Below are positions 11,568 to 18,111 of a stretch of DNA of 64,000 nucleotides, in pieces. The notes under the pieces were generated by a model, which had not been told where the DNA came from, ran no database searches, and was given only the letters and a program-made list of their open reading frames with translations. A program made the position numbers and the translations under genes. Each line of letters opens with the position of its first letter. Position 1 is the stretch's first letter. The stretch is from Blastopirellula marina DSM 3645 (lineage in GTDB: Bacteria; Planctomycetota; Planctomycetia; Pirellulales; Pirellulaceae). The DNA lies in contig NZ_CH672376.1 in NCBI RefSeq assembly GCF_000153105.1, positions 2,625,136-2,689,135 on the forward strand, read 5' to 3'.

Positions 11568-12713
11568 TTACTGGCTCTCGCCAAAGTAGCTCGCTAAGAC
11601 TTCTTCCCAGCTAGGGCTGGAAGTTCGTCGCAGCAGCACTTGGTTGACGGTTTCTCGCAGGGGACTGCCGCTCGGCAACGCGAAAGCGTAATTTTGTCGC
11701 TCGAAGGTGACCGGCAACACATAGGCGTCGCCTGCGAAGTTTTGAAAGATTTGGTACTTCAAAATTGGTTCGTCATAAACCACCGCGTCGCACTGATCGG
11801 CGACCAGGCTGTCGAGCGCTGATTCTACATTTGGGTGCTTCACGTACATAATGTGTCGAGCACGGAGATAGTCGGCCGAAGTGGAGCCTTCGACGGTCGC
11901 GACTTTGACGCGCGACAACTCAGATGGTCCGTTGATCCGCGCTTGTAATTCGGTCAACGTGAGGGCGGAGGTAACCGCAGCGGTGAATCCGGCGATTATA
12001 AACAACCCCGCAAACATCCAAATCAGGCCGATCATGCGACCGCCGAGAGAGGTCGGAACTTTGTCTCCGTAACCGACAGTCGTAATGGTGACGGCCGCCC
12101 ACCACATTCCGGAAGCGATGCCGTTCATCCAGCCGTGACCAAAATGCTCTCGATTGTGCCGGCGTTCAAACAGATAAATCCCGACGGCGCTGATGAACAT
12201 CGCCAAGATCAGGCCGGCGACAATCCGCAAAAACGCCAAAGACAAAAAGGCGTCGATAATCCCGGACCAGCCAGACCGACGATGCTTGGCGCCGATCGCG
12301 ATCCCCAGCCCCGAAGCGTAAAACGAATGCGTGAAATCCATGCGTTTCTCACGTTCGTAGTTCATCGTCAGCGCGGCGGCGGCCAGGTCTACCTGCGAGT
12401 TTTCGACGGCATCTAGCAACTCTTCCAGCGGCAGAACTTGGAACTGCAAGTCGACGGGATGGCCTGATCTCGCTTCTAACTCGGCTTTGACGTCCCGCAA
12501 CAGGTCGATGCTGATCCCTTCCCATTGATTCTCTTTGTTCCGCATCGCGAAAGGAGGAACCTCGCGCGTGCCGACGACGAGCGTTTCGGGTACTTCCAGC
12601 CTCAACGGCTGGTCGGCCGGTTGCTGAGGGTTCGCGTCGTCTTGGGCTAGGCCGGCCGCCGTCATGGCGATCAGGAATGCGAGCGATAGCAGCCAAAAAG
12701 AAACACGGGTCAT
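11568..12713 (-). CDS. GluR0-like ligand-gated potassium channel
   Basis: A 381-residue protein. Order: signal peptide (about 1-23), first half of a periplasmic amino-acid-binding domain (TLVVGTREVPPFAMR to SGLGIAIGAKH, about 45-143), membrane helix about 160-182, pore loop with selectivity filter TVGYGD (212-217), second helix about 225-250, then the second half of the binding domain (STSADYLRA to the end). This split-binding-domain topology is that of prokaryotic ionotropic glutamate receptors such as GluR0. It predicts a K+ channel opened by an amino acid or related ligand. Its ATG lies one base after the stop of the upstream paralogue, so the two are translationally coupled. Ligand unknown. 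Confidence 0.9.
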   Translation of the reverse strand: MTRVSFWLLSLAFLIAMTAAGLAQDDANPQQPADQPLRLEVPETLVVGTREVPPFAMRNKENQWEGISIDLLRDVKAELEARSGHPVDLQFQVLPLEELLDAVENSQVDLAAAALTMNYEREKRMDFTHSFYASGLGIAIGAKHRRSGWSGIIDAFLSLAFLRIVAGLILAMFISAVGIYLFERRHNREHFGHGWMNGIASGMWWAAVTITTVGYGDKVPTSLGGRMIGLIWMFAGLFIIAGFTAAVTSALTLTELQARINGPSELSRVKVATVEGSTSADYLRARHIMYVKHPNVESALDSLVADQCDAVVYDEPILKYQIFQNFAGDAYVLPVTFERQNYAFALPSGSPLRETVNQVLLRRTSSPSWEEVLASYFGESQ

Positions 12714-12714
12714 G

Positions 12715-13821
12715 CTATTCTCCCAAGTATCGATAGATAAGCTCATCCCAGGCGTCGCTCTCCCGAAACCGAAGCAGTTCTTCGTTGAGCGGTTTGCGAA
12801 GGTCGCTCTCTGGCGGCAATGCGATCGCATATTCCTGTTCGTTGAACGAGACCGGCAACACGTCGATCTGATTTAAGAATTCGTCGCTCGCGAGAAACTT
12901 GAGCAACGCTTCGTCGTAGACCATCGCATCGGCCCGATCGTCGGCCACCGCCTGGATCGCTTCGAGCGGAGTCGCATAGCCGCGAAATTTGATCCGACGC
13001 TGCGCCAAGTAGTCAGCGCTCGTGCTTGACGTCACCGTAGCGACCCGCACATGAGAAAGATCGGTGGCGCGCGCGATTCCGGTATCGAGTTGTTGCACCG
13101 TTAGAACAGACGTCACGACGCCGGTGAAGATGGACATCACCAGAATGCTGGCGAGCATCGCCAACAACGCGATGATCCGTCCCATCGTACTTACCGGAAA
13201 GATTCCCTTGTGTCCTAACAGGACGATGGCGGACCACCACACGCCCACGGCAATCCCTTCTCGCCGCTTACCGCCAAACGTGGTGGTGTTTTGCTTTCGC
13301 TCGAAAAACCAAAACAAGCAGCCGCAGATGACCACGATCCCGATCATCGCGAGCACGATCTGAATCAAGCTGCTCGACAGCACGCGCCGCAACAGAATCC
13401 AGGGATCACTTCGGTCCCGCGTACTGACCGCGATGCCCAGTCCCGTAGAAAAGTGGGGATGGCAAAACTCAACCCGTTCATGCCGATCCGCCGTCACGCT
13501 GATAGCGGCGACGGCGGCGTCTAAGTCTCCCGATTCTAGGCCGGCGAGCATATCGTCAAGCGTCAGTTCCCGAAATTCATACTCGAGATTCAGTTGGTCG
13601 GTCAGCTGTTTCCAAAGCTCAATGCTGATGCCTGACCACGATCCGTCGCGGTTTTTGAAGGAGAAGGGAGGGCTTTGTTTCGTACCGACTTGGAGGACGC
13701 CCCTGTTGTCATCCGCGGTGTCGGAGGATGAGGATGGCTGGGCCGAAGCGGAATTCCAGCCGAACAGTGCGGTTAGCAGCAGCGCCGGGAGGACCCGATT
13801 CGTAAACAATGAATGCTCCAT
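12715..13821 (-). CDS. GluR0-like receptor paralogue with degenerate pore filter
   Basis: A 368-residue paralogue of the downstream channel, with the same order: signal peptide (to about residue 27), half binding domain (LQVGTKQSPPFSFKN), helix about 152-174, re-entrant segment about 192-210, helix about 216-238, and half binding domain (STSADYLAQRR). Where the partner has TTVGYGDKVP this protein has LLGHKGIFPV, so no K+ filter is present. It may form a non-K+ pore, act as a non-conducting sensor, or assemble as a subunit with the partner; these are inferences. ATG 13821 is preferred to TTG 13833. The stop and the partner's start are separated by one base. Confidence 0.85.
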   Translation of the reverse strand: MEHSLFTNRVLPALLLTALFGWNSASAQPSSSSDTADDNRGVLQVGTKQSPPFSFKNRDGSWSGISIELWKQLTDQLNLEYEFRELTLDDMLAGLESGDLDAAVAAISVTADRHERVEFCHPHFSTGLGIAVSTRDRSDPWILLRRVLSSSLIQIVLAMIGIVVICGCLFWFFERKQNTTTFGGKRREGIAVGVWWSAIVLLGHKGIFPVSTMGRIIALLAMLASILVMSIFTGVVTSVLTVQQLDTGIARATDLSHVRVATVTSSTSADYLAQRRIKFRGYATPLEAIQAVADDRADAMVYDEALLKFLASDEFLNQIDVLPVSFNEQEYAIALPPESDLRKPLNEELLRFRESDAWDELIYRYLGE

Positions 13822-14144: not shown

Positions 14145-15362
14145 ATGAAACTCGGAATTCTGTCCACCGCCCCGCGCTGTTACAGTACGCGCCGTCTGGT
14201 TGCCGCAGCCAAAGACCGTGGGTTTAAGGTCTCGGTCGTCAATACGTTAAAGTGTTCCATCGACCTGCAATCCGGCAAGCCGGATCTTTATTACAAAGGC
14301 AAGCCGCTTGCGGACTACGACGCGATGATCCCCCGAATTGGCGCTAGTGTGACCTACTTTGGCACCGCCGTGGTGCGCCAACTGGAGCAAATGAACGTGT
14401 TTGTCGCCAATTCTTCGGGCGGAATCTCCAATAGCCGAGACAAGCTGCGCAGCATGCAGATTCTTAGTCGGCACCATATTGGCATGCCGAAAACGACGTT
14501 TGTGCGCGATCGGGCCGATCTCATCCCGTCGATCGAACGGCTCGGCGGAGCGCCGGTGATTATCAAGCTGCTCGAAGGGACGCAAGGAGTCGGCGTGATC
14601 TTGGCCGATACGATCAAAGTCGCCGAAGCGATCATCGAGACGCTGCAAACAGCGAAGCAAAACGTTCTGTTGCAAAGCTTCGTGGCCGAAAGCAAAGGTC
14701 GTGACGTTCGCGCGTTTGTCGTGGGGGATCGGGTCATCGGCGCGATGCGACGTGTCGCCCAGGGGGACGAGTTTCGCAGCAATGTTCACCGCGGGGGGAT
14801 GGTCGAAGCGGTGGAACTAGATGAAAAGTTCAATGACACCGCCGTGCGAGCTGCACAAATCATGGGTTTACAAGTCGCCGGCGTCGACATGCTGGAGGGG
14901 AACGATGGGCCTCAAGTGATGGAGGTCAATAGTTCGCCGGGACTGGAAGGGATTGAACGTGCGACAGGTCAGGACATTGCCGGCGCGATCATCGACTACT
15001 GTGCCGCCCATGTCGATTTCCCCGAAATGGATATTCGGCAGCGACTGACGGTAAGTCGCGGGTATGGCGTCTGCGAACTGGTTATCCCTGAAGGATCCCA
15101 TTTCATCGGCAAGACGATCGCGGACGCAGCTTTCACCGATCTGGACATCAACATCCTGACGCTTTACCGAGGTAAATCAGTCATTCCCAATCCGAAGGCG
15201 ACCCGTGAGCTTGAGCCGGGCGATCGCTTGTTGTGCTTCGGAAAACGAGAATCCATGAAGTCGTTGGTTCCGGCGAAGACACGAAAACAACGCGAGCCGA
15301 AGATCAAGAAACTCGATCCGTCCAAAATCGAAGATGCGTTGACCACTCCCAACTATTCGTAG
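14145..15362 (+). CDS. RimK-family ATP-grasp ligase fused to RCK_C (TrkA-C) domain
   Basis: A 405-residue protein. Residues 1-300 are a RimK-type ATP-grasp glutamate ligase: NSRDKLRSMQIL, VIIKLLEGTQGVGV (ATP-binding Lys and Gly-rich loop), EFRSNVHRGG and the Mg-site EVNSSPGLEGIE. Residues about 305-385 match RCK_C/TrkA-C: VCELVIPEGSHFIGKTI, then a beta-rich stretch and ELEPGDRLLCFG. RimK proteins add glutamates to ribosomal protein S6 or, as MptN/CofF, to pterin or F420 cofactors. RCK_C domains bind small ligands and usually regulate K+ transport. The fusion suggests ligand-controlled ligation. The Lys/Arg-rich tail is extra. Neighbouring GluR0-like channels strengthen an ion link but do not prove it. 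Confidence 0.88.
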   Translation: MKLGILSTAPRCYSTRRLVAAAKDRGFKVSVVNTLKCSIDLQSGKPDLYYKGKPLADYDAMIPRIGASVTYFGTAVVRQLEQMNVFVANSSGGISNSRDKLRSMQILSRHHIGMPKTTFVRDRADLIPSIERLGGAPVIIKLLEGTQGVGVILADTIKVAEAIIETLQTAKQNVLLQSFVAESKGRDVRAFVVGDRVIGAMRRVAQGDEFRSNVHRGGMVEAVELDEKFNDTAVRAAQIMGLQVAGVDMLEGNDGPQVMEVNSSPGLEGIERATGQDIAGAIIDYCAAHVDFPEMDIRQRLTVSRGYGVCELVIPEGSHFIGKTIADAAFTDLDINILTLYRGKSVIPNPKATRELEPGDRLLCFGKRESMKSLVPAKTRKQREPKIKKLDPSKIEDALTTPNYS

Positions 15363-15670: not shown

Positions 15671-15708
15671 TTTGCTGCTTGGATTGATTGCCAACGGGAG
15701 GTGTGCTG

Positions 15709-17259
15709 ATGCGCCTCCGCATGCCGATTGTTGCTCCAAAAGGACGGCTGTTGCAAGTCGCAGAGTATGCCCGCTACAGCACCGATGAACAAAATCCACG
15801 CAGTATTACTGATCAGTACGCCTACTCCGAGAAAATTCTCAGGGAAAATAATGCACCTGAATTCGAGACGACTCAGCTTTCTGATGCTGAAATGTCAGGG
15901 GAACTGGTTTCGCGCCCCGGCATAGATCGACTTCGACAAGGCATTGCCAAGCGTGCCTGGGATTTGATTATTGCCGAGGATTCCAGCCGGCTCTACCGCC
16001 ACGAGACCGAGTGTATGGTCCTTGTCGAAGAAGCTGTCGACGAAGGGATTCGGGTTATCTGTATCAATGATTTCGTGGATACTGCCGAACCGGATTGGCG
16101 AGATCGATTGCATGATGCCGCAAGGCATCATGCTAAAGCCAACAAGTTCACCGCTTATCGTATCAAACGAAGTCACGATGCCCTTTGGGAAATGGGGGCA
16201 GGTATCGGCAAACTTCGCCCTGGCTATTCCCGGCGCGCCTCATATCCTGCGACTTCCAGAGAGCCGGAAAGCGGACCATTTTTCGATAGCATCGATACGG
16301 TCGAAGCTGCACTTGTCAAATCCGCATACGAAATGATTGCAGCTGGCGATCACCCCACTTTGGTGGCTGGCTGGCTAACTAAAAAAGGTCTTAGGAAATG
16401 CGTAGGCGCAAAAAATATTGCCTACTCCAAAACCAATGTCAACGAATTGATCCGCCGGTCAATCTATCGTGGACACGATGTCTATCGCCACAAGGTATCA
16501 GAAAAGAAGCTTCGAACTGGCAAGTCCAAACAGCGACACCGACCAGACCAGGTGCTTACCCGAGAAATGCCTAATTTGCGTATCGTGTCTGATGCACTGT
16601 GGTACGCGGCTAATAGAAAAATCGACGAGCGACGGAGGAACAATGGTGTTCCTTCCGGAGACGAGCATCCTCTCGCGGGTATCCCGAGAACTACTCGATT
16701 CCCCCTGTCTACTCTGTTCGTCTGCGGTATCTGCGGAGGAAAAATGTGGTCTGATGGCCGAAACGAAGGTGGGTATCGCTGCAGTAATTCTGGTAGCGGA
16801 GCTTGCTGGAATAAGGCGACGGCACTACGAGGGTTAACTCATCGCCAAATCAGTGAAGTGGTTGTCAGAGAATTGCTCTCGTTGAATTCGACAATGGAAG
16901 TCTTGGTAGAGCACATTGGTACAGTTCTGAAGAAGGATACCGACCACGAGTCCATTTGTCACAAGTTAAAGAAACAGATGGAACAGCTACGCAACGAATG
17001 TGACAACTTGGGAGAGGCTCTCGCAAAGAGTGGCCCTAATGGCCAATTTCAGACGCTCTTGAATCTTCTGGCAACGAAGGAGCAGAAGTGGGAGGAGATC
17101 AGGGCAGAATTGGCTTGCCTGGAAGAGCACGTCATTGTTCCGGCCTCGATTTCACCAATGATCATCCGAAAAGAAATTGAGCGAATGTCGGGTGATCTCC
17201 TAGAACTTTGGAATTGCCCACGAAAAGTTGACAGTGGATCGGTCTTAACGGGCAGGTAA
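15709..17259 (+). CDS. large serine recombinase, C-terminus replaced by IS sequence
   Basis: Starts at ATG 15709 behind GGGAGGTG. Residues 15-130 are a resolvase domain with the catalytic Ser24 in YARYST and the DxxRxxR-like DSSRLYR (91-97). Residues about 160-310 are a recombinase domain, followed by a Cys4 zinc ribbon (C339, C342, C358, C366) and a coiled coil about 405-480: the plan of a large serine integrase. The host-derived frame ends at 17208 (500 residues); the last 16 residues come from the IS3 element. Rejoining 17208 to 18516 restores an open frame with 60 more residues. Activity of the truncated product is unknown. Confidence 0.88.
   Translation: MRLRMPIVAPKGRLLQVAEYARYSTDEQNPRSITDQYAYSEKILRENNAPEFETTQLSDAEMSGELVSRPGIDRLRQGIAKRAWDLIIAEDSSRLYRHETECMVLVEEAVDEGIRVICINDFVDTAEPDWRDRLHDAARHHAKANKFTAYRIKRSHDALWEMGAGIGKLRPGYSRRASYPATSREPESGPFFDSIDTVEAALVKSAYEMIAAGDHPTLVAGWLTKKGLRKCVGAKNIAYSKTNVNELIRRSIYRGHDVYRHKVSEKKLRTGKSKQRHRPDQVLTREMPNLRIVSDALWYAANRKIDERRRNNGVPSGDEHPLAGIPRTTRFPLSTLFVCGICGGKMWSDGRNEGGYRCSNSGSGACWNKATALRGLTHRQISEVVVRELLSLNSTMEVLVEHIGTVLKKDTDHESICHKLKKQMEQLRNECDNLGEALAKSGPNGQFQTLLNLLATKEQKWEEIRAELACLEEHVIVPASISPMIIRKEIERMSGDLLELWNCPRKVDSGSVLTGR
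17209..17241. repeat. IS3 left inverted repeat
   Basis: First bases TGGAATTGCCCACGAAAAGT. It is the inverted complement of 18483-18515 apart from one C/T difference. Confidence 0.9.
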
Positions 17260-17274
17260 TTGGCGCGGCCTGGA

Positions 17275-18111
17275 TCAGAGCGCGCCCACGAGTAACGGTT
17301 CTTTGATCGCTTGCTCGAACTCGATTGGACTTCGGTAATCGAGTGACGAGTGCAGGCGACGAGGATTGTAAAAGCGTTCGATGTAGTCCGATGCGCCACG
17401 TGTGGCGTGTTCGTGCGTTTCGTAGATCATCTGGGCTTCCTCGGTCTTGTAGCTCTTGAAGAAGGATTCCATCGGCGCGTTGTCGTAGCAGTTGCCGCGA
17501 CGACTCATGCTCTGAACGATTTCGTGGACGGCTAACCGGCTGCGAAAATGTTCGCTGGCATACTGCGAACCGCGATCACTATGAACTATCAGTCCGGCTC
17601 TCGGTGAGCGAAACGCAAGTGATTGGTCCAACGCCGCGACCACCAACTCCGAATCGATGTTGCGACTGGTCTTCCAACCTATGATCTTGCGTGAATGCAG
17701 GTCGACAAAAGCGCACAAGTGAGTGAATCCCTCTTTGGTCGGTAGGTAAGTGATATCCGTGAGCCAAACTTGATTGATGGTTTCCGTGGAGAAGTTTTGG
17801 TCAAGCAGATTGGGGGCAATCGGTTGGTCGTGGTTGGAGTCGGTTGTCGAAATTCTGAATTTGGTGCGGCGATTTGCCTGGATTCCAGCCATCCGCATGC
17901 ATTTTGCGACCGTGTTTCGGCAGCATTCAATACCGCGACTTATCAGTTCTCGGTGCATTCTTGGACTTCCGTAAGCATCGAAATGCTTCTCGGAATGAAC
18001 CTCTTGAATGGCGCGAGTGATTTGCTTTTGTTTTGTCTCGGTCGCCGTGACATCGAGATGAGTGAATCGGTAGTACGCCGCACGCGTCACTTCGAGAGCT
18101 CGACAGAGCAC
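17275..18111 (-). CDS. IS3-family transposase OrfB (DDE catalytic subunit)
   Basis: A 278-residue frame with an HTH_21 region, then an rve integrase core. The catalytic triad is readable: Asp in WLTDITYLPT, Asp in IVHSDRGSQYAS, and Glu in MESFFKSYKTE with a Lys seven residues later. YNPRRLHSSLDYRSP is the family's C-terminal signature. The frame is open upstream to the A-run at 18189-18195, so the working transposase is expected to be an OrfA-OrfB fusion made by -1 frameshifting; the start at 18111 (GTG) is only the first candidate in the frame. The copy looks intact. Confidence 0.92.
   Translation of the reverse strand: MLCRALEVTRAAYYRFTHLDVTATETKQKQITRAIQEVHSEKHFDAYGSPRMHRELISRGIECCRNTVAKCMRMAGIQANRRTKFRISTTDSNHDQPIAPNLLDQNFSTETINQVWLTDITYLPTKEGFTHLCAFVDLHSRKIIGWKTSRNIDSELVVAALDQSLAFRSPRAGLIVHSDRGSQYASEHFRSRLAVHEIVQSMSRRGNCYDNAPMESFFKSYKTEEAQMIYETHEHATRGASDYIERFYNPRRLHSSLDYRSPIEFEQAIKEPLLVGAL

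Follow-up and report, generated by a model that had tools for sequence, protein, structure and literature searches.

Why would a bacterium keep two adjacent genes for channels of the glutamate-receptor type, one with a potassium filter and one without, and do their products meet in a single pore? The question is raised by genes A and B in the window, by which we mean the whole stretch of 64,000 nucleotides from Blastopirellula marina DSM 3645 that was analysed. Among 22 putative prokaryotic channels, Ger et al. (2010) assigned 12 to Group 1, with a K+-type filter, and 10 to Group 2, with P regions unlike any type recognised by those authors and described as closest to eukaryotic receptors (PMC2950845). 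Bacterial homologues with and without a K+ filter are therefore both already known, and neither alone is new (PMC2950845). The K+ channel GluR0 of Synechocystis has both termini, N and C, outside; cells without it shrink faster after a KCl upshock, so that GluR0 slows shrinkage, and its authors propose that effluxed glutamate might activate it (PMC13099474). Here we examine what the two genes encode, how widely they occur together and which arrangement of their products best accounts for both.

Two paralogous channel genes in tandem

Genes A and B lie head to tail, with A upstream and B downstream, and a single base separates them.

Positions 13821..12715, minus strand: gene A, 368 amino acids, GluR0-like, S1–M1–pore loop–M3–S2, without a K+ filter
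Positions 12718..12726, minus strand: end codons of gene A, Leu-Gly-Glu (TTGGGAGAA), likely to contain the ribosome-binding site of gene B
Positions 12714..12714, minus strand: 1-base spacer between the TAG of gene A and the ATG of gene B
Positions 12713..11568, minus strand: gene B, 381 amino acids, GluR0-like K+ channel subunit with the same topology as gene A

The sequence GGGAGA, which resembles a ribosome-binding site for gene B, falls inside the last codons of gene A. Both proteins match the Pfam domain Lig_chan and, in split form, SBP_bac_3, and in both a ligand domain of the SBP type is divided by two membrane helices and a pore loop. Each has an N terminus that, judged by eye, resembles a signal peptide. 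Only B of the two also matches Ion_trans_2, the K+-channel model of Pfam; no NCBIfam model scored above its cut-off for either protein. A and B are 37% identical over the aligned part. The first-pass annotation of this DNA had described coupled paralogues with a split ligand-binding topology, and the Pfam matches and gene coordinates confirm it. When the whole genome was searched with B, only A and B themselves and one partial match (residues 165–277 of B) were returned. Scans for consensus promoters (1 match, shuffle mean 1.3) and for terminators (4 matches, mean 3.4) gave no excess.

A shortened motif at the filter position

Two features set the pore loops apart.

Positions 12063..12083, minus strand: selectivity filter of B, TTVGYGD (residues 211–217), invariant in 29 of 29 B sequences
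Positions 13195..13221, minus strand: filter-position motif of A, LLGHKGIFP (residues 201–209), with L201, G203, K205 and P209 invariant in 23 of 23 orthologues

The pore sequence is WWAAVTITTVGYGDKVP in B and WWSAIVLLGHKGIFP in A. The K+-channel signature is present in the pore loop of B and absent from that of A, which supports the initial description of two GluR0-like channels, one with a K+ filter and one without. Family alignments show A to be two residues shorter than B between WW and P; LLGHKG thus occupies the same place as the filter of B, yet is no simple substitution for it. The earlier placement of LLGHKG at the TVGYGD site was accordingly right about the position. All 23 A orthologues carry the short motif, in which position 202 is L or F, position 204 is H or N and position 206 is G or S, giving the forms LLG[H/N]K[G/S] or the variant LFGHKG.

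Mean conservation of the motif (0.83) exceeds that of A overall (0.74); the filter of B reaches 0.98. Conservation in the membrane part is lower for A than for B, in M1 (0.64, the lowest value of any region of A, versus 0.75), the pore loop (0.78 versus 0.86) and M3 (0.73 versus 0.86), a difference that would fit a pore under weaker demands.

AlphaFold single-chain models (21 sequences each; mean pLDDT 78.3 for A and 81.5 for B; pTM 0.58 and 0.62) consist, in this region of A, of a pore helix (residues 186–201), a loop (202–211) and M3 (212–247), and in B of a pore helix (195–210), a loop (211–222) and M3 (223–257). Whether the filterless protein has a pore helix at all had been raised as a check, and the single-chain model predicts one. 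With moderate confidence (block means of 62 and 63), the models place the shortening of A in the filter loop. The best Foldseek matches of both models are chains of AMPA receptors (probability 1.00; best E values of 2.5e-20 for A and 8.5e-21 for B). Among the 50 matches listed, TM-scores by query length are 0.50–0.57 for A and 0.46–0.64 for B, with the large rmsd that is expected when two domains are placed differently.

Ligand-binding site

Ligand-contact positions are intact in every sequence compared: S108, R113, S266, T267 and D303 in 23 of 23 A proteins, and T116, R121, S277, T278 and D314 in 29 of 29 B proteins. We take these to be the positions of GluA2 (Arg, Ser/Thr and Asp/Glu) that grip the amino acid. 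By sequence, the best match among solved structures for both A and B is 2pyy, an ionotropic glutamate receptor bacterial homologue whose entry covers the ligand domain only; the Arg, Ser-Thr and Asp positions align between the A profile and 2pyy. This protein is presumably NpGluR0 of Nostoc, and we know of no filterless partner for it. The ligand domain of GluR0 itself (1ii5 and 1iit; Slr1257) is also a sequence match for A. A and B are both likely to be amino-acid receptors.

A is a single conserved group

Orthologues of A with the short motif were found in 23 genomes from four families, a recurrence beyond what chance would give. The samples comprised 241 genomes of the family of the window and overlapping sets of 396, 397 and 392 genomes at the levels of order, class and phylum. 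Sixteen of the A genes belong to the window's family, two (G059 and G093) to a second family of the order and four (G556, G692, G1047 and G1129) to another family of the class; that of G622 is more distant. Named records with A include Stieleria tagensis, Stieleria sedimenti, Roseiconus nitratireducens, Rhodopirellula sp. JC639 and SM50, and Botrimarina colliarenosi. The named-record search yielded 11 loci, 9 of which are A; the other 2, from Polyangiaceae and an alphaproteobacterial bin, encode other GluR0-like proteins.

In trees of 69 and 71 sequences, A forms one group with support of 100/100 among sequences that mostly have a K+ filter. Given this grouping, the filter was probably replaced once in the A group, provided that the root lies outside A, an assumption on which any single origin depends in these unrooted trees. 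Twelve rows, mostly long-branched, were kept in the first tree and omitted from the second, where the software marked some joins between other long rows as possibly false; A is one group in both. Three GluR0-like proteins (L066, L018 and L077) have other non-K+ stretches at the filter, ITGGCENK, ITGSCDDK and AQAAAADK. Because these fall outside the A group in the tree, the filters of bacterial GluR0-like proteins may have changed more than once.

Six comparisons gave dN/dS values of 0.048, 0.095, 0.066, 0.139, 0.117 and 0.085 for A and of 0.085, 0.182, 0.158, 0.154, 0.161 and 0.095 for the corresponding pairs of B, with A lower in all six; the comparisons share genomes, and dS for G361/G869 (1.8 for A and 1.5 for B) is near saturation. 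A is under purifying selection. Its single tree group, invariant motif, intact ligand contacts and dN/dS of 0.05–0.14 show that it is not a decayed copy.

Pairing across genomes

A adjoins a K+-type paralogue in 20 of 23 genomes, in the order A then B in 18 of these 20 pairs; a survey of the pair, proposed together with the original description, thus finds it conserved across planctomycete families. Loci L128 and L129 (genomes G1047 and G1129) are reversed, with CorA followed by a K+-type gene and then A. The K+ partner in these two genomes lies outside the B clade (support for the clade, 100/100), at an exact place that is weakly supported (91/57). Three genomes depart from adjacency: in G372, B lies on a different contig; in G622, the K+-type gene is unlinked; and in G794, rated 99% complete, A is intact and a search with B found no K+-type gene. 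The A branch of G794 (locus L108) measures 0.42, compared with 0.18 in its sister row.

Sixteen of the 20 junctions were examined for candidate start codons. A plausible start of B lies −4 to +4 bases from the stop of A in 11, two offer a codon in that range as well, although a start further along is likelier, and three have none within 4 bases. The one-base gap between stop and start that was reported for the window is real, and tight spacing of this kind is common. No second GluR0-like gene was found in the fetched flanks of 39 GluR0-like loci without A, a set that includes some short flanks as well as some loci that nearly duplicate one another or share a genome.

A census of the 241 genomes of the family found A with B in 15 (unlinked in G372), A only in 1, B only in 5 and neither in 220. 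The association has a Fisher p of 9e-19, ignoring relatedness and counting as ‘neither’ G804, which has a partial match at a contig end, and genomes with K+-type homologues outside the B clade. Distance matrices of A and B are correlated (r = 0.86, 19 genomes, 0 of 5000 permutations), a comparison that takes in the unlinked pair of G372, whose B distances average above the regression prediction. Both statistics are inflated because related species share ancestry, and the correlation arises in part because A and B both follow the species.

B persists without A

A B-clade gene without A occurs in nine genomes (G003, G329, G347, G863, G866, G159, G083, G151 and G783), a count that leaves aside the partial match of G804. 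In the sister species G003, B is 91% identical and lies between the same two neighbours. Two blastn matches there frame the missing A, one of 127 bases that includes the last 28 bases of A and one of 38 bases from upstream of A (both 87%). A second copy of the locus in G390 (L048, 3632–5419) retains pieces of A (residues 23–128 and 307–368) directly before an intact B, inside an MscS/PP2C/CorA cluster. Upstream of B at the nine B-only loci and the unlinked G372 locus, tblastn for remnants of A gave no match or weak ones (E of 0.017 or worse), including eight C-terminal residues of A in G003; the second G390 copy, the positive control, was recovered with an E of 5e-34.

The nine genomes, the deletion scar and the broken A together show that A is dispensable to B, whereas a K+ partner is rarely missing where A is present. 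Obligate pairing was rejected for B on the basis of the nine genomes. The analogy drawn in the first-pass annotation with eukaryotic receptors that have obligate subunit mixes is not supported, given that B stands alone in nine genomes, was kept after the deletion of A in a sister species, and that the A of G794 has no K+ partner that we could find.

Gene neighbourhood

In many relatives, the pair belongs to a cluster that encodes a mechanosensitive channel of the MscS type, a fusion of a PP2C phosphatase to a cyclic-nucleotide-binding domain (PP2C-cNMP), A and B themselves, an Mg2+ transporter of the CorA type and, in some cases, MgtE. Domains were identified on the proteins of L071 and L072, and genes at other loci were recognised by similarity to these. 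The fetched flanks of the 20 adjacent pairs, some limited by contig ends, contain CorA in 12 cases, PP2C-cNMP in 9, MscS in 8 and MgtE in 5. CorA is on the other strand and upstream in G845, is in two pieces in G816 and adjoins B in several loci without A.

In the window, no MscS, PP2C-cNMP, CorA or MgtE gene lies beside the pair. The neighbours are a gene for an FAD-binding protein and the following gene, in an arrangement identical to that of G003.

Positions 14145..15362, plus strand: RimK-type alpha-L-glutamate ligase with a TrkA_C domain, divergent from the pair

A close relative of this RimK-type gene lies beside B in G003 and another near the second G390 copy, and RimK-like genes occur near GluR0-like genes in L048, L093 and L097. 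Just beyond the RimK gene of the window are a serine recombinase (15688–17259) and an rve integrase/transposase (17275–18111); positions 15688–18111 form a possible mobile-element boundary.

One shared channel or two

The reading that we prefer is that A and B co-assemble and that A alters the conduction or gating of the K+-selective B; we put its probability at about one half. Several observations point to it: 20 of 23 A genes stand beside a K+-type paralogue, in two arrangements and with different K+ partners; the 39 loci without A contain no tandem; 11 of 16 junctions are close; and the distances of A and B are correlated (r = 0.86). The dN/dS of A is also low (0.05–0.14), and A has a pore helix, conserved ligand-contact columns and an AMPA-receptor-like fold. 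A role for A as a dependent accessory subunit would fit the nine B-only genomes, the scar in G003 and the longer A branch of G794. Against co-assembly, gene coupling and co-occurrence would look alike if each protein formed its own homotetramer, G794 has an intact A and no K+ partner that was found, the genes are unlinked in G372 and G622, A is the less conserved of the two in its membrane part, and the window lacks MscS and CorA neighbours.

A and B could also be made together and remain unmixed, as two homotetramers, with B carrying K+ and A, through a short filter of its own, something different such as non-selective cations. The pore-loop architecture, pore helix and strictly conserved motif of A speak for this, as does the lone A of G794; however, the branch of that A is longer than the one in its sister row, A is beside a K+-type gene in 20 of 23 genomes, and a cation path would not usually have an invariant lysine at its filter. 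We consider separate homotetramers less likely than co-assembly. A third possibility is that A is a receptor or regulator: it would bind either ligand or B, keep B closed or help it to assemble, and line no conducting pore. Such a role is rather improbable, in our view: the filter motif is more conserved than A as a whole (0.83 versus 0.74), which would be needless in a pore that never matters, even though the GYG signature is missing, the filter is two residues short, conservation is complete in the ligand-binding columns and lowest, within A, in M1, and nine genomes keep B without A. The loss of A in G003 and its breakage in the second G390 copy are what a decaying duplicate with no function of its own would show, but an open reading frame in 23 genomes, one tree group, an invariant motif and dN/dS of 0.05–0.14 make this very improbable, and we rejected it on conservation and dN/dS.

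Relation to known channels

B resembles Synechocystis GluR0 (slr1257) in its split ligand-binding domain, two membrane helices and K+-type filter, and Group 1 of Ger et al. (2010) in the filter (PMC2950845). The Group 2 homologues were reported to be nearest to the receptors of eukaryotes (PMC2950845). A groups among bacterial sequences that have a K+ filter (100/100), in trees composed without eukaryotic sequences or those of 2010. Synechocystis GluR0 is presented as one gene, with a partner subunit unmentioned in the sections drawn on here (PMC13099474), whereas A, without a K+ filter, accompanies B. The main text of Ger et al. (2010) does not contain words beginning planctomyc- or heteromer-, or the word tandem (PMC2950845). 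Among the matches listed in open-licence literature, judged by titles and the openings of abstracts, we recognised no account of such a pair or heteromer in bacteria, or of its MscS/CorA context. The original suggestion that such a pair is uncharacterised in bacteria agrees with these matches; filterless homologues by themselves were already known (PMC2950845).

Silent Kv subunits (Kv5, Kv6, Kv8 and Kv9) offer an analogy only. In the accounts drawn on here, they form no functional homomer and join and modify a working paralogue, Kv2. They are part of voltage-gated animal channels, unlike A and B, and they keep the K+ filter.

Proposed function and implications

Under the co-assembly reading, A and B would together build a ligand-gated cation channel from two kinds of subunit, located in the inner membrane of Pirellulaceae and of some related planctomycetes. 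B would be a K+-selective subunit of the GluR0 type, probably able to work alone. A would be a conserved accessory subunit in which the amino-acid-binding domain and the pore helix look intact and the filter is shortened and lysine-bearing, LLG[H/N]K[G/S]. Close gene coupling would ensure that both are made together, and in mixed tetramers A would weaken or alter K+ conduction or gating. The likely task, we infer, would be to control ions and volume: an amino acid in the periplasm, perhaps glutamate that has left the cell through MscS-type channels, would open the channel and K+ would move. Such a role is made plausible by the MscS, CorA and MgtE neighbours in relatives and by the cell-volume role of Synechocystis GluR0 (PMC13099474).

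A K+-type channel beside a sister protein with a replaced and strictly conserved filter motif suggests a two-subunit channel of the kind known from animals. More tentatively, and at something short of even odds, K+-filter and lysine-filter subunits may share one pore in a bacterial heteromeric glutamate-receptor channel that belonged ancestrally to an osmotic ion-homeostasis cluster, in which case subunit mixing with divergent pore loops, known from animal receptors, arose in bacteria too. Two-subunit glutamate-receptor channels with divergent pore loops are—to our knowledge—otherwise known only from eukaryotes; a pore shared by A and B would extend them to bacteria. The pair would then be a small, expressible model for the replacement of a K+ filter within this family, a change that the origin of animal receptors is assumed to have involved, and its MscS/CorA/MgtE context in relatives provides a concrete hypothesis for the role of bacterial glutamate receptors.
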